Positions 269-11,102 of a stretch of 64,000 bases of DNA are shown here, one piece after another. A program made the position numbers and the translations under genes. Under the pieces are notes generated by a model. That model was not told where the DNA came from. It saw only the letters and a program-made list of their open reading frames with translations, and ran no database searches. Positions within the stretch are counted from its first letter, which is position 1. Each line of letters starts with the position of its first letter. The DNA comes from Bacteroidota bacterium (lineage in GTDB: Bacteria > Bacteroidota > Bacteroidia > Bacteroidales > F082), in contig JACNJS010000021.1 in assembly GCA_014382445.1 (NCBI GenBank), positions 1 to 64,000 on the forward strand, in the 5' to 3' direction.

Positions 269-886
269 TTACTGTATCAAACTCAACCCTTCAACGGCCG
301 ATTTATTATTTGGTTGATTTAATAATGCTTTGTTAAACAACACTTTTGCTTTTCGCATTTCCCCCATTTTAAAGTAAGTCCACGCCGACATAATAATTGA
401 ATCGTAATCGAAAGGGTAATGGTTTAATAGCTTTTCAAAATATTTTGCTGCTGTTTTATAATCTCCTTTACCATAATAAATTAACCCAAGCCTGTAGTTG
501 GCTGTATAATTTTCGGAATCCATGGCTAATATATCATTATATGTGTTTTCAACCTGAGTCCAGTTACCCATTGCTGCTGCCGGATTAACAATGCCAAACC
601 TGGCTTCAATAGAAAGAGGGATTAGTTGAATACACCTTTGATAATAAGGTGTTGATTCATTAAACAAACCCGATAAATAATGTAACCATCCAAGGCGTAA
701 ATTTATTTCATACGAATCTTGGTTGTAAACATCTTTAAGTACGTTAATGGCTTCTGCGTATTCACCATCCTGCTCCAGCTTATACGATTCTGAAAACGCC
801 TTCTGCATTTTTTCATCATTTTGCGAAAAACTGTTGATTGCTATAATGAATAGCAACAAGAAAATTATTTTTTTTAGAATTTCCAT
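269..886 (-). CDS. Secreted tetratricopeptide-repeat protein
   Basis: The 205-residue product begins with a lipid-free signal peptide (about residues 1-22, ending in SFSQ). The remainder is about five degenerate TPR units, visible as W/L-G-Y/F-A-P periodicity: EDGEYAEAINVL, LSGLFNESTPYY, GKGDYKTAAKYFEKLL, KMGEMRKAKVLFNKAL. TPR proteins act as protein-protein scaffolds, here probably in the periplasm. The start overlaps the end of the upstream barrel gene by 13 bases, so the two are translationally coupled. It is the last gene of the three-gene operon headed by the urea-transporter/M23 fusion. Specific function is unknown; a role in assembling or localising the other two products is inference. 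Confidence 0.85.
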   Translation of the reverse strand: MEILKKIIFLLLFIIAINSFSQNDEKMQKAFSESYKLEQDGEYAEAINVLKDVYNQDSYEINLRLGWLHYLSGLFNESTPYYQRCIQLIPLSIEARFGIVNPAAAMGNWTQVENTYNDILAMDSENYTANYRLGLIYYGKGDYKTAAKYFEKLLNHYPFDYDSIIMSAWTYFKMGEMRKAKVLFNKALLNQPNNKSAVEGLSLIQ

Positions 887-2439
887 TTTAAACCTCCGAA
901 TATACTTGGTGTTTGGTAATTAAACGTGTTATTAATTAAATTGTTATTTTGGTTTTGATTTGCTCCTTCATCCGAAATTTCATTAAAAATGCCTTCGTAC
1001 GCAATATATTGATAAAGCAAATTTAGTTCCATATGTTTACCGATGAATATTTTAAAGGTTAATCCGCCTTTAAATCTCATTTTATCCGCCTGATTATATA
1101 CTACAAACCCATTTGATATATTGGCGTTGTTAAGATTACCTATGGTTAAATCAACTTCTCCCCAAAGACGACGATATAATTTACTGCCTAATTTCTGATT
1201 AATTATGAGCCTGTTTTCATTCCATCCGTCATCCCATCTTTGCGCAAACCAGGTTAAACCTGAAGCTCCATAAAAAGAAGCGTGCTTGTTTAAATAATAG
1301 AACGCAGATATTCCAAGTTGATTTTGATTTAACCCATTAAGTGATGAAATACTTCCGTTTAAGTTAAAGGTAATATTGTTATAATCCTTTTCAATGTTTA
1401 CTCCAAATACATAATTAAAAAAAGATGAATCGGTTCGCGTAAACTGAAGTTCATCATAAGTATAAGTGATAAATTCCGGGGAATTTCCAATTACGTAGTA
1501 GCTCGTATCAGTAACACTTGTTTGCACCGTATCAGCCTTAATATTTACCGATTTAACCATAACCAAATTTGAAAAAAGCGTAATCGCCCACCCTGTTTCA
1601 AATTGAAATCTTGAGTTAAGATATATCTCATCCTGTTTTATAGTTTCATCAAACGACTTACGAAAAAATTCAGGATCATTTGAAAAGAAATTTTGGAATC
1701 CCCAATCCTCTCGCTGAACTGAATCTAATACAATAGGGGCTTCAATATATTGAAAACTTATTTTCTTTTGAATTTGAAGTCGGTTATATCCTGCGTATAG
1801 GCTAACTACAGGTGACAAGTTAAAATTGACTCCTGCATAAAAGTCAGATTTATCACCTATTAGTATTTGAGATCCGGCAAGAGTATCATCGGTATTATTA
1901 ATTATAAACTTGTCGTTTAATGCAAAGTTATTTGAAAATGAGTAACCACCACCAGCGTATAATGCTTCAACGGGTTTTCGTTTTTCAGGAATAAGGGACA
2001 ATGTATTGTTAGAAAAACTCATGCCTAACCTGTATGCCCTTGTGTTTTTACCAAGTAACTTATAAGTGTCGTATAGATAAAGCTGAGCAGTTTGGTCCTT
2101 TGAGTTAAATATCAACGCCTTTTCAAAATGATCGGCTGCTTCCGGCAATCTGCCAAGATAATAGGCAGCTATTCCCATCCTCATCCTTAAATAGTAATAA
2201 TCTATATTTTTATTTAGAGCTCTATCTCCGGTATAAATAACCTTCTCCCAGTCATGATTAATATAGTGAGTATAAGTAACTGAATCAAGTATTCGATAAT
2301 CGTTGCCTACAAATATCTGACCCGATAAATGCTGTGTTCCTGTAAGTACTATTAAACTTATTAAGAGTGCTTTGCAAAACATGGAGGTAACTGTTATTCT
2401 GAACAACGTGAAAAATCTCATCAACTTGAAATTAAGCAT
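874..2439 (-). CDS. Outer-membrane beta-barrel protein with N-terminal TPR
   Basis: The 521-residue product has a signal sequence (cleavage probably near residue 40; a second ATG seven codons in gives a tidier signal peptide). TPR-like helices follow at about residues 85-135 (LGRLPEAADHFEKALIF). About 350 residues of alternating amphipathic strands complete it, rich in aromatic residues and ending in GGLKWKF, the terminal-aromatic signature of outer-membrane barrels. It is the middle gene of the operon, 13 bases after the urea-transporter/M23 fusion and overlapping the TPR gene downstream. The family is not one I can name. The context suggests an outer-membrane partner of the fusion protein, perhaps a pore or a surface anchor. 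Confidence 0.8.
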   Translation of the reverse strand: MLNFKLMRFFTLFRITVTSMFCKALLISLIVLTGTQHLSGQIFVGNDYRILDSVTYTHYINHDWEKVIYTGDRALNKNIDYYYLRMRMGIAAYYLGRLPEAADHFEKALIFNSKDQTAQLYLYDTYKLLGKNTRAYRLGMSFSNNTLSLIPEKRKPVEALYAGGGYSFSNNFALNDKFIINNTDDTLAGSQILIGDKSDFYAGVNFNLSPVVSLYAGYNRLQIQKKISFQYIEAPIVLDSVQREDWGFQNFFSNDPEFFRKSFDETIKQDEIYLNSRFQFETGWAITLFSNLVMVKSVNIKADTVQTSVTDTSYYVIGNSPEFITYTYDELQFTRTDSSFFNYVFGVNIEKDYNNITFNLNGSISSLNGLNQNQLGISAFYYLNKHASFYGASGLTWFAQRWDDGWNENRLIINQKLGSKLYRRLWGEVDLTIGNLNNANISNGFVVYNQADKMRFKGGLTFKIFIGKHMELNLLYQYIAYEGIFNEISDEGANQNQNNNLINNTFNYQTPSIFGGLKWKF

Positions 2440-2452
2440 CTACTTTTTTGTT

Positions 2453-4651
2453 TTAAAATTTTCGTGAAGCGATAATTGATTTTTCATTTTCATTGATGGT
2501 GAATTTCGCTATTCCCTTATTTCCGGCAATAAGTGTAAAATCCAATTTCCTCACTGTTAATTTTCCCATTCCGAAATTTGCCTGCGATCTTAGCGTAACC
2601 CGGTTTTCGTTTACTAACTCCTCCATTTTGGAATACTTTACCGAATAATCTGCCCTTAGGAATTTATAGAAGGGTATCGCGAAATCCTGCAATACCAATA
2701 ATTTTTTATCAGGGAACACATTAAGTGGATACGAATCGTGGATTTCCATATTATTATAGTAGGCCATTGTAAGCTTGAAAGATGACAGGTAAAAATAATA
2801 AAGAAGAGAATTTGCACCGCCCTTATAATATGTAAAATAAAATACATCACCAATACTTTTAAACCAGGCTGTATCGCCGGTTATATTACATGCAATACTG
2901 GTATTGTTATAAATATCTGATTCTACACTCCAAATGTGTTCTTTTTTAAGACCATTTTCTTCGGTTTCAAATTTTATTTCAGCGCCAGGTGTAAAATTAA
3001 ATGCATACTTAAGCGTATCATTTGGTACTGCATTTGAAACAATTATGTTATTCTCTGGTTTGCATGCAGTCCTAAAAGAGTAACTTTTATCATCACGTAT
3101 AATGAGTGACGAAAAAGGATAATCAATTGTATTAGATCCAATTGTTGGTGTGGCCTGAAATTGCATATGCAAGTGTGGATATGGTGATCTGCCTGAATTT
3201 CCTGAATGACCAATTATTTCGCCTTGCTTAACTGTTTGTCCGGGCACTACTTTTATGCTATCTTTTTTAAGATGACTTACTTGCGTGTAAAAATGTTCGG
3301 CATGCTTAATTACAACGCTATTACCCCAGTTATTATCTATATCTATATTCCCGATAAAATTATCTTCAATTCCCGATCTAACTTCTTCAACTATGCCATC
3401 ACCCGGTGCAACTACAGGCTTATTAAAACAATAATATTGTTCAGAATAAACACCATTTCCTTCGTATGAGTTTCCTTCATCATCAAAAATTTCAAAATCC
3501 CATGCATGGCGCCATTTGTCCTTATGTGTTATTTCACCATTATGCGCTTGTGTTATTTTCCACTCACCCCAAAAGGGCAATTTCATTGAAAATAGAGGTA
3601 ATATTCCAAACCGTTTCATATAACTGTAGTTGGAGTAAGCATGCAGTTCTGGTGAATTTTGTTGCACTGCAACAATGGCTATTTTATCAAAATTCCTCTC
3701 TCTGAATTTTAATACATAAAGGAAGAGGATAACAATTATATTAAATGGCAATGAGAATGCCGAAAGCTGAAAATTAGCAAGTAACACCGATGTGCTCGAT
3801 AAAGTAATGGCTACCAATGGGGTCAACAATATTACCCAAATTACAGCTCTTCTCGATGGTACTACAAAAAACCCTCCAACAGCAATGGAGGTTAATATGT
3901 AGTTAAAGCCAATGTAACTGTAACTGAGTTCGCTAATATTTGCGCCAATAACAAGGTAGAAATAATAAGCTGAGAAAAAGCCAATGAGCGACATCAAAAA
4001 AGCTATCCTTGAATAATATACCAGGCCTATTGCAAGCAAAATTCCGGCAAACATATGGTACTGAAATAATATTGCACTAAGTGATTTAAAATATATGCGA
4101 AGTGCTTCAGGGAAGTTCAAATTATTAAACCATTCGTACAGGTTCACCATTGTTGCTCCACCAATGGCATACATATCGTTAAGGTAATAAATTCCTCTTT
4201 CACTAACTTCAAGTGCTGAATAACCTTTTGTGGCAATAATAACCATCCATATTCCAAATAAAAACGGAATACTTAAATACGGTAAACCATACTTTCCTAT
4301 AATACCTTCAAGGCTGATGGTAATCATAAAGGTTAGTATGGAGATAAAAATTAATATGATATAAAACTCAACGCTGGGCTGATAGTATATTCCTATTCCC
4401 AAACCAACCATTAATGCATTAAAGCCATATGCACCGCTAATAACTTTTTGGCGGTTCATACCCATAATAATTGCTGTAAGGTTAGCTATAATTACAGCTG
4501 CTAAACCTGCAATTCCTGCGTAAAGATCAAAAAAAGTTACCAGTATTAATATGATCGCGAAAAACCGATTCTTTGAAAAGAAAACCTGTGCATAACTATT
4601 AAGCACACAGTTTGCTACATTTAAGTATGATTGTTTTGAGCCTTTAAACAT
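2453..4651 (-). CDS. Urea transporter domain fused to an M23-type peptidase domain
   Basis: The product has 732 residues. Residues about 1-310 form a polytopic membrane domain with the features of the urea transporter (UT/SLC14) family: an early QVFFSKN-type helix, GLAAVIIAN, GAYGFNALMVGLG and a second related half, FNYILTSIAVGGFF. From about residue 345 an M23 (LytM-like) fold follows, with PVVAPGDGIV, HAEHFYTQVSHL and the HxH motif in HLHMQF (about 492-496). The upstream zinc motif is HAWD near residue 380, one residue shorter than the usual HxxxD, so catalytic activity is uncertain. The last 200 residues are an unassigned beta-rich domain. UT channels pass urea down its gradient; M23 enzymes cut peptidoglycan cross-links. 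It heads an operon with a barrel protein and a TPR protein. No urease genes are nearby. Confidence 0.85.
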   Translation of the reverse strand: MFKGSKQSYLNVANCVLNSYAQVFFSKNRFFAIILILVTFFDLYAGIAGLAAVIIANLTAIIMGMNRQKVISGAYGFNALMVGLGIGIYYQPSVEFYIILIFISILTFMITISLEGIIGKYGLPYLSIPFLFGIWMVIIATKGYSALEVSERGIYYLNDMYAIGGATMVNLYEWFNNLNFPEALRIYFKSLSAILFQYHMFAGILLAIGLVYYSRIAFLMSLIGFFSAYYFYLVIGANISELSYSYIGFNYILTSIAVGGFFVVPSRRAVIWVILLTPLVAITLSSTSVLLANFQLSAFSLPFNIIVILFLYVLKFRERNFDKIAIVAVQQNSPELHAYSNYSYMKRFGILPLFSMKLPFWGEWKITQAHNGEITHKDKWRHAWDFEIFDDEGNSYEGNGVYSEQYYCFNKPVVAPGDGIVEEVRSGIEDNFIGNIDIDNNWGNSVVIKHAEHFYTQVSHLKKDSIKVVPGQTVKQGEIIGHSGNSGRSPYPHLHMQFQATPTIGSNTIDYPFSSLIIRDDKSYSFRTACKPENNIIVSNAVPNDTLKYAFNFTPGAEIKFETEENGLKKEHIWSVESDIYNNTSIACNITGDTAWFKSIGDVFYFTYYKGGANSLLYYFYLSSFKLTMAYYNNMEIHDSYPLNVFPDKKLLVLQDFAIPFYKFLRADYSVKYSKMEELVNENRVTLRSQANFGMGKLTVRKLDFTLIAGNKGIAKFTINENEKSIIASRKF

Positions 4652-4738
4652 ATATTTTGTTAACTGTCAAAATTACCAATTATTAGGTAGTATACTAAAC
4701 CTGAATTCCGAAGTTGGACTTTACTTAATTTTTCATGC

Positions 4739-4815
4739 TTCTGTCTTCTAACTTCTGTCTTCTAACTTCTAACTTCTGTCTTCTGACTTCCAACTTCTGT
4801 TTTCTGACTTCCAAC
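4739..4815. repeat. Tandem 7-bp repeat (11 units)
   Basis: Eleven consecutive heptamers of the form TTCTAAC / TTCTGTC / TTCTGAC / TTCCAAC fill this stretch with single-base variants, and a twelfth degenerate unit follows. It lies between the decarboxylase stop codon (4824) and the urea-transporter/M23 start (4651). The units are purely polypyrimidine-biased on this strand. Spacers are absent, so it is not a CRISPR. It is a simple minisatellite likely to vary in copy number. Confidence 0.85.
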
Positions 4816-4823
4816 TTCCTCAC

Positions 4824-6182
4824 CTACAATTCAAACTTCTCAAGATGTTCCGGAACCTTTTCAACATCGAGTAAATTTTGCAGACTTTCGCCTTCCCGAA
4901 TAACATGAGGTTTACCATCTATATCAATCATTACAATTTTAGGGCGTAAGGTAATAAATTGCATCCATTGTGTCATGTTGTAAGCTCCTACATTATGAAT
5001 AACAACATGATCTCCCTTATTTAGCAACGGAAGGCTGATTTGCTCGCGAATTACATCAATATTCATGCAAAGCGGACCATACAATACTGTTTCTTCAGTA
5101 TATTGTGTAAAAGGCTGAGCCGGTGTAATTTTATGATCATACCAAAATGATGTAAAAAGTATGTTAACACCTATATCAAGGATTGTACTCCTGCGCCCAT
5201 CCGACAAGCGTTTATTCGACAATACAGAGCCAAGTAAAAATCCTGCATCATCTACAAGGGCTCTTCCGGTTTCGAGTATTAACAGGGGTAACTTATCGGG
5301 TCTGAAATTACTATTTATTAATGCACTGGTTATTGCTTCGGCAAATTCATTTATTGAAGGGCTAATATCAACACCAGGCAAATAGCCACCCTTAAGAGTA
5401 TTGTTTGAAGCAAAACCGCCTCCCATGTCGATGTAGTTAACCTCATGGTTGTATTTTTCTCTTACGCCTATTGCCAGCTCCGCAAGTTTGTAAGCAGCAA
5501 CAGAATAAGCATTTGGTGAAAGCATGAAAGTACCTATATGGGTATGAAGTCCCACCAGTTCCATCACGTCCGAACGCATTATTTTATTAAGAGCATCCCA
5601 GGCTTGCCCATTCTCAAAATTAAAACCAAACCTATCCCACATTGGGTAAATTCCGGTATCCATGTTTACCCTTATGGCAACTTTGGCAGTGATATTTAAG
5701 TTAGTGGCAATTTCTTTGATGGCATAAAATTCATCAAAATGGTCGATGTGGATGATTGAGTTATTGCTAATTGCTTTGTGCAAATCATCATCAGATTTAT
5801 CGGGACCATTAAAAATTATTTTTGAACCTTCAACCCCGTTATGAATGGCTTTATCGTATTCAAACCCCGACACTACTTCTGCCCATGAGCCTTCCTGATG
5901 AAAGGTACGGCAAACGGCATCCATATAATTGGTTTTATACGACCACGCAAACTGAACTTTAGGATAACGCGTTTCAAACGCTTTGCGAGCCTTACGTACA
6001 TTGCTACGTATCGTTTTTTCCGACAGTACAAATACAGGTGATCCATATTTGCTAATCAAATCTGCTACAGCAACCCCGTCGATATGAGTTTTTGGTGCAT
6101 ACTCAGTGCGCATTCCAAATTTGTTTGGCATGCTACTTTCAAGCTTTTTTATAAGTGGTCGTTCGTATCTAAATTTATCCAT
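4824..6182 (-). CDS. Fold-type III PLP-dependent decarboxylase (DAP/ornithine decarboxylase family)
   Basis: The 452-residue product has the alanine-racemase-like barrel plus C-terminal beta domain of the Orn/DAP/Arg decarboxylase 2 family. Visible are the PLP lysine K83 (WSYKTNY), the barrel motif HTHIGTF (213-219), the phosphate loop GGGF (254-257), ETGR (304-307), the active-site cysteine C372 in GPLCMNID, and GAY (399-401). Canonical DAP decarboxylase has CES-D after GP and a different GAY context, so the substrate is unlikely to be plain diaminopimelate. The ATG at 6182 is preferred: a longer frame exists only from a TTG at 6236, and the first residues from 6182 (MDKFRYERP) look like a real N-terminus. 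It is the third gene of the PqqD/ATP-grasp operon, which suggests it acts on an amino acid or peptide made there. Confidence 0.85.
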   Translation of the reverse strand: MDKFRYERPLIKKLESSMPNKFGMRTEYAPKTHIDGVAVADLISKYGSPVFVLSEKTIRSNVRKARKAFETRYPKVQFAWSYKTNYMDAVCRTFHQEGSWAEVVSGFEYDKAIHNGVEGSKIIFNGPDKSDDDLHKAISNNSIIHIDHFDEFYAIKEIATNLNITAKVAIRVNMDTGIYPMWDRFGFNFENGQAWDALNKIMRSDVMELVGLHTHIGTFMLSPNAYSVAAYKLAELAIGVREKYNHEVNYIDMGGGFASNNTLKGGYLPGVDISPSINEFAEAITSALINSNFRPDKLPLLILETGRALVDDAGFLLGSVLSNKRLSDGRRSTILDIGVNILFTSFWYDHKITPAQPFTQYTEETVLYGPLCMNIDVIREQISLPLLNKGDHVVIHNVGAYNMTQWMQFITLRPKIVMIDIDGKPHVIREGESLQNLLDVEKVPEHLEKFEL

Positions 6183-6256
6183 TTTTTTGTTATTTAGTTG
6201 CAACGAGGAATGTCCGTTGTTGCTGTTGATGTACAACAGTATACTGTTAATAATTA

Positions 6257-7300
6257 TTATAATTCTCCGGTGGTTGATATTTTTTCAAATTCCTCAATAT
6301 CAACAATCATTTCCCAGGAATATCTTATGAACATTTTACCGGCTTTAAAGGTAGTAATTGGTTCAACTTCATTGCCTAATGCCAGGTTAACGATTAATTC
6401 AGGTATATTTTGACCAACCCCAACTGCCAGATAAACCCAGGCCGGAATTCGTGGATTTATTTCAAGTAGGTAAAACTTACCATCTTTATTTTTCATTAAT
6501 TCCAGCTCAAAGGCTCCTCTCCACTTTGTTTCTTTTATAAAATGATGGGTTAAATCCAATAACTTACTATCAGTAATTGCAATACCTCCCCATGCTTTAC
6601 CAATTTCGGTAATATATTGCTTACGCATTGGTACAGCCGATAATGTGTTACCATTGCCATCGCCAACACCGGTTACATTAAATTCAGATCCATGTTTAAA
6701 TTCCTGAATAATAATGGGCAACCCCCATTTTGCTGAAATTTTATTAAAATGTGTTTGCAGTTGGTCCTTATTATATGCAATTTTTGCATCATAATGTTTA
6801 CCTTTTACAACAATTGGCCACTCAAAATCATCCTTGTGTTTTCTAAAATCCGCAACTGAATATATCGACTCGCTTTTGGGAACATTTATATTATATTTCT
6901 TACCAAACTTTGGAAGATTAACTTTCAACCTTTCTTCAAACTGATCGAGTGTGGGCATAAACATATTAATCCCCATCTTTTTAAGCTTTGGTTCAAGCTT
7001 GATGAATGAAAATAATTCAGCATCGAAATTTGGAATAATAACATCCAATGATTCTTTTTCGTGAATGTAAGTTAATCGCTCCAAAAGCAAGTCGGTGCCG
7101 GAAGTGGGATATGGTATCTGGTAAGTACGATCAACTATATCGTGCATGTAAATACCTGGCTCCAGCGATTCGTATGCCAACCCTATAATGCTGGCTTCAA
7201 ACGAACTAGCCTCAAGCAAGCCACGTATAACAGCAACACCTGGCCCGGGATTATCGATAGCATTTAACCCTGTAACTCCAATTTTAATTTTAGGCCGCAT
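6257..7300 (-). CDS. ATP-grasp ligase (carbamoyl-phosphate-synthase large-subunit-like)
   Basis: The 347-residue product shows an N-terminal Rossmann-like pre-ATP-grasp domain (KIGVTGLNAIDNPGPGVAVI) and then ATP-grasp motifs. These are the nucleotide-binding lysine region WPIVVKGKHYDAK (161-173), the hinge IIQEFKHGSEFNV (197-209), and the metal-binding residues in GAFELELM (262-269) and LLEINPR (278-284). Such enzymes activate a carboxylate as acyl phosphate and join it to an amine or thiol. Start: an ATG at 7300 is chosen over a TTG at 7312; it still overlaps the PqqD gene end by 11 bases, indicating coupled translation. Substrates cannot be read from sequence. The PqqD-like partner points to peptide or amino-acid modification. 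Confidence 0.85.
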   Translation of the reverse strand: MRPKIKIGVTGLNAIDNPGPGVAVIRGLLEASSFEASIIGLAYESLEPGIYMHDIVDRTYQIPYPTSGTDLLLERLTYIHEKESLDVIIPNFDAELFSFIKLEPKLKKMGINMFMPTLDQFEERLKVNLPKFGKKYNINVPKSESIYSVADFRKHKDDFEWPIVVKGKHYDAKIAYNKDQLQTHFNKISAKWGLPIIIQEFKHGSEFNVTGVGDGNGNTLSAVPMRKQYITEIGKAWGGIAITDSKLLDLTHHFIKETKWRGAFELELMKNKDGKFYLLEINPRIPAWVYLAVGVGQNIPELIVNLALGNEVEPITTFKAGKMFIRYSWEMIVDIEEFEKISTTGEL

Positions 7301-7544
7301 TTTGATTTTCAATTAATGAGTATAGTTTTAACAAATTAATGAAGTCCGACACATCCTTGTCAATAGTTACAATATCAGCATTGTATCTGCCAATAAGTAC
7401 CTGATTAATTTCGTTAATTGATTTTTCCTGTTTTAGCATTTCAATTATTTCAACGCCAATCGGATTTACCGTATATGACTCTCCCGTAGTAGGGTTAAAA
7501 ACAAATCCTGAATCGCTAACTGCTATATTTTTATTTATGTTCAT
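7290..7544 (-). CDS. PqqD-like peptide-binding (RRE-fold) protein
   Basis: The 84-residue product matches the PqqD family. It has an N-terminal strand pair with FVFNPTTGESYTVNPIG, then helices of the type EIIEMLKQEKSINEINQVLIGRYN and DVSDFINLLKLYSLI. PqqD proteins are winged-helix RiPP recognition elements that present a leader peptide to a modifying enzyme. This one is first in a three-gene operon with an ATP-grasp ligase and a PLP decarboxylase. I found no convincing precursor-peptide gene in the flanking DNA, so the ligand may be encoded elsewhere or may not be a ribosomal peptide. The ATG at 7544 is the only sensible start. Confidence 0.8.
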   Translation of the reverse strand: MNINKNIAVSDSGFVFNPTTGESYTVNPIGVEIIEMLKQEKSINEINQVLIGRYNADIVTIDKDVSDFINLLKLYSLIENQNAA

Positions 7545-7954: not shown

Positions 7955-10270
7955 ATGTCAAAAAAAATCATTTGTTTAACCATTTTGACCCTGTTAGCAC
8001 AATTACTTCTGGCTCAGGATAAATTTACCATAAGTGGCCATGTAAAGGATGCTTCTTCAGGCGAAGGCCTCATTGGAGCAACTATTTATATTGAGGAGAT
8101 GAAAGGTGGGGGCGCCACCAACGATTATGGTTTTTATTCGTTAACAATGCCTAAAGGTAAATATCACATTCGATACAGTTATATTGGCTTTGAGTCAACA
8201 GTCCTTACGATTGATCTCAACAAGAATCAAGTTCATGATATCGAAATGAAGATTCTTGAATCTACCTTGGGGGAAGTCGTGATTAAAGGGCAGGCCGATA
8301 ATGAGAATATCAGATCTGCCGAAATGGGTGTTGTTAAGATGGATATAAAAGAAATCGAAAAAATACCAGTACTATTTGGTGAACAGGATATTATCAAAAC
8401 ACTAACACTAATGCCCGGAGTAAGCAGCGGTGGAGAAGGGAAAGGTGGTTTTTATGTTCGCGGTGGCAACACCGATCAAAATCTGATACTGTTGGATGAA
8501 GCACCGGTTTACAATGCCAATCATTTAATGGGTTTCTTTTCTGTATTTAATTCTGATGCACTAAAAGATATCAAATTGTACAAAGCCGGTATTCCAGCAC
8601 AGTTTGGAGGAAGGCTTTCCTCAGTTCTTGATGTTCATATGAAAGATGGAAACTCGAAAAAATATACTGTTTCCGGCGGTTTAGGTTTGATTTCATCACG
8701 ACTTACAATTGAAGGCCCCATTGTTAAGGATCAGGGATCGTTTATTATATCCGGACGCAGAACATATGCAGATATCCTTCTTGGGATGGTAGACAAAGAT
8801 TTTAGCGATGTTGATTTATTTTTCTATGATTTGAATGCAAAGGCAAACTATAGAATTGGAGAAAAGGACAAGGTTTTTATCTCAGGATATTTTGGCAGAG
8901 ATAAGTTGGGGACAGAAAATTTTGGATTTAACTGGGGCAATACTACCGGAACATTGAGATGGAACCATATTTTCAATAATCGTTTATTCTCAAATACATC
9001 TTTTATCTACAGTAGTTACGATTACGAGATAAACGTTAACCGTAGCAATTCCGACTTTAGGATTACATCAGGCATTGAAGATTATCATTTTAAACAGGAT
9101 TTCACTCTTTTTGCAAGCACAAACAATAATATTAAGTTTGGTTTTGATGTAATTTATCACATTTTCAAACCGGGAGAATTAAAATCATTTGGTGATACGG
9201 AATTGAACAATATAATTATCGACAAAAAACATGCTTTTGAGAGTGGGTTATATCTCTCCAACGAGCAAAAAATTGGATCACGGATAATGCTTGAATATGG
9301 TATCCGATTATCTATGTTTAATGAAGTTGGTCCGGGGACCATTAATCAATACGATGTTAATGGAAATATAATTGATGAAAAGGAATACTCCGATCTGGAA
9401 CTTATTCAATCATACTTGATACCAGAGCCTAGGTTTTCGATGAGCTACGTATTAAACGAACAAAGCTCACTTAAAGCTTCATATCAGCGTAATGCCCAGT
9501 ATATTCACTTATTGTCGGCTGCAACATCTGATAATCCTACAGACGTTTGGATGCCCAGCAGCTCGGTAATTAAACCCGAAAAAGCAAATCAATATTCAGT
9601 AGGATATTTCCGAAACTTTATGGATAATATGTTTGAGTCTTCCATAGAAGTATACTATAAAGACATGTACGACCTGGTGGATTATCAGGATGGAGCCGAT
9701 GTATTACTCAATGAACATGTGGAAGCAGAGTTGGTTTTCGGTAATGGAAGGTCGTATGGCATTGAGTTACTATTTAAAAAACGTATCGGAAAGTTTACCG
9801 GATGGGTTGGATATACTCTTTCGAAAACGGAACATAAGTTCGATGCAATAAACAATGGTGCTTGGTTTTCAGCACGCCAGGATAGGACTGACGATATTTC
9901 GATTGTAGGAATGTATGACATCTCAAATAAATTATCAGTTTCGGCTACCTGGATTTATTATACCGGCGATGCTGTTACTATGCCCAGCGGACAATATACA
10001 ATTGATGGAAATGTAATTCCATACTATACCGAACGAAACGGCTACCGAATGCCGAATTATCATCGTCTCGACCTTGGTTTAACGCTTAAGGGTAAACAAA
10101 CCAAAAAATTTCAATCCAGTTGGAATTTTTCAATATACAATGCCTATGCACGTGAGAATGCTTATTCTATTTCATTTCAGGAAAGTGAAACCAATCCCGA
10201 AGTGATGGAAGCAGTTCAATTCTCACTTTTTTCAATAGTTCCGTCAGTAACCTGGAATTTTAAATTTTAA
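7955..10270 (+). CDS. TonB-dependent outer-membrane receptor with CarboxypepD_reg-like domain
   Basis: The 771-residue product has a signal peptide (about 1-20, ending LLLAQ) and a carboxypeptidase-regulatory-like beta-sandwich (about 24-105, ISGHVKDASSGEGLIGATI). A plug domain follows with FYVRGGNTDQNLILLDEAPVY (about 168-188), then a 22-strand-type barrel ending in SVTWNFKF. These receptors import bulky ligands across the outer membrane using TonB energy. There is no SusD partner; instead a DUF4249 lipoprotein follows by 4 bases, a common Bacteroidetes pairing. The ligand is unknown. The ExbB/ExbD genes at the right edge of the window could energise it but are 50 kb away. Confidence 0.92.
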   Translation: MSKKIICLTILTLLAQLLLAQDKFTISGHVKDASSGEGLIGATIYIEEMKGGGATNDYGFYSLTMPKGKYHIRYSYIGFESTVLTIDLNKNQVHDIEMKILESTLGEVVIKGQADNENIRSAEMGVVKMDIKEIEKIPVLFGEQDIIKTLTLMPGVSSGGEGKGGFYVRGGNTDQNLILLDEAPVYNANHLMGFFSVFNSDALKDIKLYKAGIPAQFGGRLSSVLDVHMKDGNSKKYTVSGGLGLISSRLTIEGPIVKDQGSFIISGRRTYADILLGMVDKDFSDVDLFFYDLNAKANYRIGEKDKVFISGYFGRDKLGTENFGFNWGNTTGTLRWNHIFNNRLFSNTSFIYSSYDYEINVNRSNSDFRITSGIEDYHFKQDFTLFASTNNNIKFGFDVIYHIFKPGELKSFGDTELNNIIIDKKHAFESGLYLSNEQKIGSRIMLEYGIRLSMFNEVGPGTINQYDVNGNIIDEKEYSDLELIQSYLIPEPRFSMSYVLNEQSSLKASYQRNAQYIHLLSAATSDNPTDVWMPSSSVIKPEKANQYSVGYFRNFMDNMFESSIEVYYKDMYDLVDYQDGADVLLNEHVEAELVFGNGRSYGIELLFKKRIGKFTGWVGYTLSKTEHKFDAINNGAWFSARQDRTDDISIVGMYDISNKLSVSATWIYYTGDAVTMPSGQYTIDGNVIPYYTERNGYRMPNYHRLDLGLTLKGKQTKKFQSSWNFSIYNAYARENAYSISFQESETNPEVMEAVQFSLFSIVPSVTWNFKF

Positions 10271-10274
10271 GCAA

Positions 10275-11102
10275 ATGCAAAAAATACTTAAATATAGTTG
10301 GCTATTCATATTTATCAGCTTTACTTTGGTTTCATGCGAAAAAGTAATTGACCTCGATCTAAATACTGCCGAACCAAGGTTGGTAATTGAAGGGAACATA
10401 ACTTCTAACCCCGGTCCCTATTTAGTGTCATTAAGCACCTCAGGTGATTATTATACAACTCATGGTATTAATCCTGTATCAGGTGCGAATATTATTATTA
10501 GTAATGAATTAGGTCATGCCGACACACTCTTTGAATTTAAACCTGGAATTTATCATACGAGTACCTTAACTGGTGAAACAAACCGGACATATACCATCGT
10601 TGTTGACTATAATGGCAAAGAGTATTCAGGTTCAGAAACCCTTCCACATAAAGTTTATATTGACTCACTAAGTTATGAAAAAATGGAATTTACCGGACCC
10701 GGTGGAGGTGGTGGAGAAGACAAACCCCGATATTCTATTTATTGTACTTTTTTAGATCCTATTGAAACTGTAGATTATTACCGTTTTGATATATTAGTGA
10801 ATGGCATTCCAATGGGGGGATTTAGAAGCTATTACTACCTTGCAAGCGACCAGCTTTTTAACGGCCATATTGTACAATATCCCATTAGGTGGGTTGAATC
10901 TCAACCAGGAGACACAGTTACCATTAGCTTGCACACTATCGGCTTCAATACATGGGAATATTTCAGGACTTTAAATGATGCATTGAGCGGCGGCGGAATG
11001 GGAAGTACTCCTTATAATCCTATTACAAACCTCAGCAACAATGCGTTGGGCTATTTTGGAGCTTATGCAATTGATTCTAAAAATTTAGTGGTAGGACAAT
11101 AA
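10275..11102 (+). CDS. DUF4249-family lipoprotein
   Basis: The 275-residue product carries a lipoprotein signal (LVSCEKVIDLDL, Cys about residue 21). It has the typical DUF4249 start: VIDLDLNTAEPRLVIEGNIT, a short beta-sandwich with a GANIIISNELG motif, and an SETLPHKVYIDSLSYEK segment. The family is found almost only next to TonB receptors in Bacteroidetes and is thought to sit at the outer membrane as an accessory subunit. It is 4 bases downstream of the receptor gene, so the two are co-transcribed. A glycine-rich segment (GPGGGGGE) interrupts the middle. The molecular role of the family is not established. Confidence 0.82.
   Translation: MQKILKYSWLFIFISFTLVSCEKVIDLDLNTAEPRLVIEGNITSNPGPYLVSLSTSGDYYTTHGINPVSGANIIISNELGHADTLFEFKPGIYHTSTLTGETNRTYTIVVDYNGKEYSGSETLPHKVYIDSLSYEKMEFTGPGGGGGEDKPRYSIYCTFLDPIETVDYYRFDILVNGIPMGGFRSYYYLASDQLFNGHIVQYPIRWVESQPGDTVTISLHTIGFNTWEYFRTLNDALSGGGMGSTPYNPITNLSNNALGYFGAYAIDSKNLVVGQ

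Follow-up and report, generated by a model that had tools for sequence, protein, structure and literature searches.

The DNA analysed here is a 64,000-nucleotide stretch from a Bacteroidota bacterium (hereafter the window), bases 1-64000 of one contig of a 3.47-Mb draft genome, and our subject is a tight operon of six genes on its minus strand (269-7544). The operon encodes, in order, a PqqD-like protein, an ATP-grasp ligase, a fold-III pyridoxal phosphate (PLP) decarboxylase, a fusion of a urea-transporter (UT) channel with an M23 peptidase, a TPR protein with an outer-membrane barrel, and a further TPR protein; the overlaps between genes are short. We propose that the PqqD-like protein is a recognition element of the type known from ribosomally synthesised and post-translationally modified peptides (RiPPs), a RiPP recognition element (RRE), which reads a YxxP motif, and that what it binds is a tail at the N-terminus of the decarboxylase encoded in the same operon. 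A leader peptide would in that case have turned into an enzyme-borne docking tail. On the sequence evidence, which is strong, this contact, taken by itself, is highly probable. The whole model, in which an RRE-guided ligase-decarboxylase complex is coupled to its own envelope transport module, is put forward with moderate confidence. The original prediction, made from the letters of 4824-7544, had described a compact three-gene operon. The operon is indeed conserved across Bacteroidota, but it has six genes, including an inner-membrane channel/peptidase and an outer-membrane barrel, and the trio is its first half. Pfam matches and an 11-nt overlap of the first two genes (ATG at 7300) bore out the back-to-back arrangement of the trio.

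The PqqD-like protein (84 aa; 7290..7544, minus strand) scored 43.4 bits against Pfam PqqD (PF05402; cut-off 23.4), which places it among RRE domains of the beta3-alpha3 type, and it is the only PqqD domain in the source genome. Against the NCBIfam equivalog for the PqqD of PQQ biosynthesis (TIGR03859) it reached 23.2 bits, below the cut-off of 46. The nearest solved structure was the lasso RRE TbiB1 (E 4e-4, alignment over residues 9-79), and the three-stranded sheet is conserved in the family. The crystal structure of LppB shows D70 and a pocket with Y60 around the leader Tyr; N33 and F74 hold the leader Pro, and L32, F74, M78 and L83 hold the third leader anchor (PMC13381572). With a constant offset of six, these positions correspond to V26, N27, Y54, D64, F68, L72 and L77 of the window protein, all conserved in the family, an equivalence drawn from residue numbers in the paper and not from sequence alignment; the TbiB1 alignment backs it for Y54, D64 and F68. 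Among the residues that would read YxxP, N27 is kept in 125/128 sequences, F68 in 122/128, D64 in 117/124 and Y54 in 109/124 (codons of N27, D64 and F68 at 7464-7466, 7353-7355 and 7341-7343). The RRE groove, on which the original prediction depended, is therefore kept together with its YxxP-reading residues (PMC13381572).

The same protein family was inspected for carrier features. No conserved Cys was found (113 of 124 members have none) and the C-terminus is not conserved, which makes it unlikely that the protein acts as a carrier through a thioester or its C-terminus. This bears on a scheme like that of BtrI/BtrJ/BtrK, in which the PqqD protein would bear the amino acid while the ligase and decarboxylase act on it. 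The functional trio is the same and BtrK belongs to the clade of FigC and the diaminopimelate (DAP) decarboxylases (PMC7857480), matching the decarboxylase here at 90 bits. Nevertheless, the small protein is a PqqD and not an acyl carrier protein, and what it keeps is the RRE groove, which makes the scheme very improbable.

The predicted ligand lies in the decarboxylase (452 aa; 4824..6182, minus strand; alanine-racemase fold; Pfam Orn_Arg_deC_N, 99.5 bits). Its start codon, ATG at 6182, is conserved among orthologues and an upstream TTG at 6236 is not. The first ~30 residues lie ahead of the part that can be aligned to FigC and DAP decarboxylases. Residues 3-23 (KFRYERPLIKKLESSMPNKFG; 6114..6176) form a leader-like tail with the strongly conserved consensus K-x-R-Y-E-R-P-[V/I/L]-I-x-K-...-N-K-F-G; the linker after it varies more. 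Across 128 distinct loci, Y/F6, P9, I/L/V11 and K21 were each present in 128/128 and G23 in 127/128, and the tail is not present in decarboxylase paralogues outside the operon. Its YERPLI (6150..6167) fits YxxPx[L/V/I], within the motif [Y/W]xxPx[L/V/I/F/A] that discrete lasso-type RREs read (PMC13381572; PMC12710340). A DNA pattern of the full tail motif, demanding YxxP and NKFG together, gave 16 sites in 15 of 395 genomes, every one at the N-terminus of an operon decarboxylase, and a reversed-pattern control gave 0 matches in the 395 genomes. Elsewhere in the operon, conserved YxxPx[I/L] strings occur only inside folded domains, leaving the decarboxylase tail as the sole operon-specific instance of a leader-like motif. 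In one complete genome the motif region is present in two identical copies, one near each end of the contig (G272:C1:3856-3908 and 3735272-3735324), which may reflect a real duplication or the overlap of a circle left unclosed.

The contact between the leader Tyr and the LppB equivalent of Asp64, D70, has been proven structurally (PMC13381572). In an RRE that reads Tyr, loss of the Tyr hydroxyl should free this Asp to change. The 128 loci comprised 117 with Tyr6/Asp64, eight with Phe6/Tyr64, one with Phe6/His64, two with Tyr6/Asn64 and none with Phe6/Asp64; every locus with Tyr6 replaced by Phe thus lacked D64. The rule was first seen in 111 loci, and the loci retrieved later obey it too. Decarboxylase position 6 and PqqD position 64 ranked first among 1,456 comparable column pairs under a null that preserves relatedness. 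We rely on this rank and on the prior structural prediction, because Fisher's test of the covariation is inflated by relatedness. Docking through the tail has good support.

We also looked for a precursor peptide, and for small peptide genes near the operon in general. Small-ORF (open reading frame) clustering at 117 loci, and at 21 wider loci, revealed no conserved small ORF near the operon, in agreement with the original prediction that no precursor gene is present. The clustering gave full-length neighbours only, such as proteins with type IX secretion system (T9SS) tails, an AraC regulator and an eIF2B-like gene. Since the sole operon-specific YxxPx[I/L/V] leader-like motif is the decarboxylase N-terminus, nothing supports a free-standing leader peptide as the ligand; of the two options offered originally, a substrate encoded elsewhere or a reused PqqD fold, the second comes close to our finding. 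Judged by its sequences, the locus belongs to the RREs by membership and lies outside RiPP clusters as defined, because the search for a precursor failed. A conventional RiPP system, in which the RRE binds a separate precursor encoded elsewhere and the likeness of the tail is secondary, has in its favour that RREs usually serve precursors (PMC12710340). A precursor carrying only YxxP would also slip past a pattern that demands NKFG as well. Against it stand the 117 loci with no conserved small ORF, the lack of any other operon-specific YxxP motif and the covariation of tail and RRE. We therefore regard it as quite improbable.

A different reading is that the tail is itself leader and substrate. 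In such an enzyme-borne RiPP the RRE would bind YERPxI, the ATP-grasp would modify the NKFG block, for example at Lys21, the decarboxylase would finish the added amino acid in cis, and the tail might be cut and exported. Conservation does run past the RRE motif to K21 and G23 before the variable linker begins, no separate precursor was found, and MccE, of the same decarboxylase clade, completes a peptide-borne amino-acid group (PMC7857480). However, one product per enzyme molecule is costly, a conserved cleavage site was not identified, and docking to the ATP-grasp accounts equally for the second conserved block. On balance this is unlikely. So, to a slightly greater degree, is the boldest reading, a natural self-leadered enzyme carrying its own RiPP core, in which the RRE reads the decarboxylase N-terminus, the ATP-grasp ligates onto the tail (for example at the invariant Lys21), decarboxylation follows in cis, and the core is released and exported via the UT-M23 protein and the barrel.

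The nearest structure to the decarboxylase is that of the N-citrylornithine decarboxylase FigC/FslC (7kh2, 208 bits), followed by the best DAP decarboxylase at 137 bits and BtrK at 90. It scored 245.6 bits against NCBIfam FslC (NF041039; cut-off 500) and 215.8 bits against the LysA equivalog TIGR01048 (cut-off 297.9), below the threshold in both cases. These scores support the view that it is not a standard amino-acid decarboxylase. The GPLCMNID loop, which had been singled out as atypical, is present and conserved in orthologues. Could the gene simply encode the cell's DAP decarboxylase LysA, with incidental neighbours? There is a TIGR01048 match of 215 bits, and no better LysA was seen in the source genome. 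In contrast, 13 operon-bearing genomes have an additional, separate LysA above the TIGR01048 cut-off, the FigC match exceeds the best DAP decarboxylase by 71 bits, and the operon is tightly conserved. Plain LysA identity was rejected on account of the separate LysA, and as an explanation of the locus it is barely credible. The other fold-III enzyme of the source genome is an arginine decarboxylase beside an agmatinase-like gene (both named by inspection). The FigC clade also includes SbnH, MccE and BtrK (PMC7857480). Taken together, the scores below the FslC and LysA cut-offs, the separate LysA elsewhere and the arginine decarboxylase indicate that the operon decarboxylase is a dedicated enzyme, probably acting on a conjugated amino acid as its clade relatives do.

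The FigC likeness raises the possibility of a rhizoferrin-like metallophore operon, in which an ATP-grasp would replace the NRPS-independent siderophore (NIS) synthetase, the FigC-like enzyme would decarboxylate an acyl-ornithine, and the barrel and channel would handle the chelator. Such an operon can be reconciled with tail docking. FigC is the nearest characterised decarboxylase, and a regulator with a CxxC domain often accompanies the operon. This AraC-type regulator lies directly upstream in 49/117 distinct loci; it turned up at 55 loci, at most of them a short way ahead of the operon. Its N-terminal part carries NMxCxCC, and Pfam supports only its helix-turn-helix part. Distant paralogues of the regulator adjoin a copper-ATPase-like gene (L203) and an RND-efflux-like gene (L206), both named by inspection. 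The N-terminal domain weakly hints at metal-responsive expression, a mere hint because this domain had no HMA match in Pfam. On the other side, the alignment to 7kh2 puts Ile and Gln at the positions of H357 and R387, which hold the citryl group in FigC (PMC7857480), no TonB receptor is conserved, and UT channels are not known as siderophore exporters. The metallophore reading is thus doubtful, and rhizoferrin itself as the product is disfavoured by the loss of the citryl residues. In the source genome, the closest homologue of the regulator lies on another contig. In genomes without an operon-adjacent regulator, a close homologue of it (53-55%; loci L198, L199 and L200; G000:C14, G015:C50 and G034:C39) lies beside a gene that we named PorZ-like by inspection and presume to belong to type IX secretion.

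The ATP-grasp ligase (6257..7300, minus strand; Pfam ATPgrasp_Ter, 39.5 bits) starts at a conserved ATG at 7300, the ORF list giving a TTG start at 7312. Its predicted structure is a complete fold with a mean predicted local distance difference test (pLDDT) score of 92.4, and its active site is complete and conserved (125 orthologues were aligned), in line with the ligase assignment made originally. For this and the other structure searches, the closest matches named are those among the matches listed, and families beyond them are not taken as excluded. The top match was 2pn1 (Z 30.9), a structural-genomics entry annotated as a carbamoyl-phosphate-synthase subunit, followed by biotin carboxylases, glycinamide ribonucleotide (GAR) synthetases, PylC and amino-acid ligases at Z 24-26. 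The fold and these matches indicate ATP-dependent ligation as the chemistry and do not point to one substrate.

The second half of the operon encodes envelope proteins. In the fused protein of 732 aa (2453..4651, minus strand), a UT channel is joined to an M23 metallopeptidase in the periplasm and to a further domain at the C-terminus. The UT domain scored 191.9 bits against Pfam PF03253 (cut-off 25) and aligns with the bacterial urea channel 3k3f/3me1, and it reached 122.5 bits against the urea transporter Yut equivalog TIGR03441, below the cut-off of 274.6. The M23 domain scored 59.7 bits against Pfam Peptidase_M23 (cut-off 28.7), and its metal and catalytic motifs TH, AWD, SHL and PHxH are invariant in 101/101 proteins; TH is taken here as the first metal ligand in this M23 subgroup. 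Because of this invariance the peptidase is probably active. The next protein (521 aa; 874..2439, minus strand) is predicted to join a periplasmic TPR region to an outer-membrane beta-barrel of ~14-16 strands, with helices at 48-147 and strands at 157-520 in a model of pLDDT 90.3. Among its listed matches were FadL/CymA/OmpG-like barrels at Z 18-21. The last protein (205 aa; 269..886, minus strand; Pfam TPR) has a signal-peptide-like N-terminus, and its gene overlaps the preceding one by 13 nt, as in nearly every relative. Together, the three proteins look like a conduit for a small molecule.

Co-occurrence of the genes was examined at several depths. Of 149 genomes of the same family, 45 had the ATP-grasp, and the decarboxylase and UT-M23 were each found in 47; contig ends or one weak partial match account for the few mismatches. 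Such near-identical gene sets, with PqqD adjoining in 124/125 loci (the single exception is a contig end), lie far above chance. Gene order was kept in 20/20 same-family loci and all six genes were found in 19/20, the retrieved DNA of the twentieth stopping inside the fifth gene. In a phylum-wide sample the ATP-grasp occurred in 34/395 genomes and 27/171 genera, and the PqqD-ATP-grasp-decarboxylase-UT-M23 core was found in the same order in 24/24 loci retrieved, with the TPR gene in most. Pairwise distance matrices of the four main proteins correlate (r 0.78-0.95). At 117 distinct loci the six operon genes were far commoner than other neighbours, except for the upstream AraC-type regulator. 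Its carriers include many aquatic members of the Bacteroidota. A role in anti-phage defence was considered, and PADLOC gave no match.

Together, these results suggest the following arrangement. The RRE, whose gene overlaps that of the ATP-grasp, would hold the decarboxylase and the ATP-grasp together in a single complex, in which NKFG, the other conserved block of the tail, probably touches the ATP-grasp. By the logic of its family, the ATP-grasp would link an amino acid through an amide bond, most likely at the side-chain amine, and the FigC-like decarboxylase would strip the alpha-carboxylate of the conjugate to leave an acylated diamine-type product. The UT-M23 inner-membrane protein, the TPR/barrel protein and the TPR protein may then carry it across the envelope, so that the product is probably an exported, amide-linked, decarboxylated small molecule.

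Several points weigh against this model. The LppB equivalence depends on published residue numbering, as stated above. In the tree, a single clade holds all exceptions to the Tyr6-Asp64 pairing and Tyr changed to Phe only about twice, which leaves little support that is independent of phylogeny, and an independent-pairs test of the covariation cannot attain significance. FigC's citryl-holding residues are replaced. The UT pore is altered relative to dvUT in at least one position: the first-half QVxF element is retained and pore positions are kept in part, while the second-half Glu is Ala in ~90%, so the transported solute may not be urea (we take QVxF and this Glu to be pore residues). Finally, the TPR/barrel portion is rearranged in distant lineages, where a shorter barrel gene stands beside the TPR gene, and was undetected in a few loci.

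RREs serve as class-independent beacons for RiPP discovery, each assumed to serve a precursor peptide. If the model is true, evolution has put leader-RRE recognition to use for docking one protein to another, or an enzyme carries its own core peptide; orphan RREs without precursors would be explained and a ready-made docking pair supplied. The data suggest a link between ligase and decarboxylase, through an enzyme tail and an RRE, of a kind not seen before. We found no description of this gene combination in the open-access literature, and the accompanying envelope module (a urea-channel/M23 fusion and a TPR barrel), conserved in ~9% of sampled Bacteroidota genomes, is likewise undescribed.

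Some neighbouring features vary between loci. In about ten (L036, L045, L049, L059, L099, L125 and others), a gene of ~280 aa, which by inspection we take to be eIF2B/ribose-1,5-bisphosphate-isomerase-like, is inserted between decarboxylase and UT-M23. Directly upstream of PqqD, loci of distant lineages (L170, L171, L172, L174, L176, L184 and L185) encode a secreted FG-GAP protein that ends in a type IX secretion tail, a neighbour seen at 15 loci in the small-ORF clustering, and about five loci (including L059, L074, L108 and L119) carry a secreted M64-like metallopeptidase, named by inspection, with a HEFGHGFAGLGDEY motif. In the window, the gap between decarboxylase and UT-M23 contains a tandem array (4738-4818; period 21, ~4 copies; also periods 7 and 14). 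Divergent to the operon, 7955-11102 on the plus strand holds a TonB-dependent receptor with a CarboxypepD_reg domain and then a DUF4249 lipoprotein-like gene, a pair shared with the same-genus relative L032 and unconserved in other relatives.

The closest known systems are the discrete lasso and LPP-type RREs TbiB1, LppB, PbaB1 and FusB1. They share the PqqD fold family and the YxxPx[L/V/I] ligand motif with the protein described here, which keeps the Asp that hydrogen-bonds the leader Tyr, the Asn at the Pro kink and the Phe that splits the cleft. In contrast to those RREs, its apparent ligand is an enzyme tail instead of a precursor peptide, and the operon is without a lasso cyclase, a transglutaminase-type protease or a precursor; neither an Asn-synthetase-like cyclase nor a B2-type protease appeared among the conserved neighbours or in Pfam/NCBIfam scans of the operon proteins. 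The nearest precedent for an enzyme-borne RiPP would be the borosins, in which precursor and methyltransferase form one fusion protein. There too a leader/precursor sequence is covalently joined to its modifying enzyme, but the enzymes differ, no RRE is involved and the core is C-terminal. FigC/FslC of rhizoferrin biosynthesis, which acts on a conjugated amino acid, has in common with the decarboxylase the WxRFGF region and a catalytic Cys that CM follows. The enzyme here differs by its extra leader-like N-terminal tail, and its operon by an ATP-grasp in place of the NIS synthetase. PylC (Z 25.1) and the Bacillus licheniformis L-amino acid ligase (Z 24.5) share the ATP-grasp fold and amide formation between amino acids, a likeness at the fold level only (~15% identity). 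In the butirosin trio, BtrJ is the ATP-grasp ligase. BtrI/BtrJ/BtrK likewise combine a small protein, an ATP-grasp ligase and a fold-III decarboxylase (BtrK: PMC7857480), but BtrI is an acyl carrier protein, whereas the small protein here is an RRE without a conserved attachment site.

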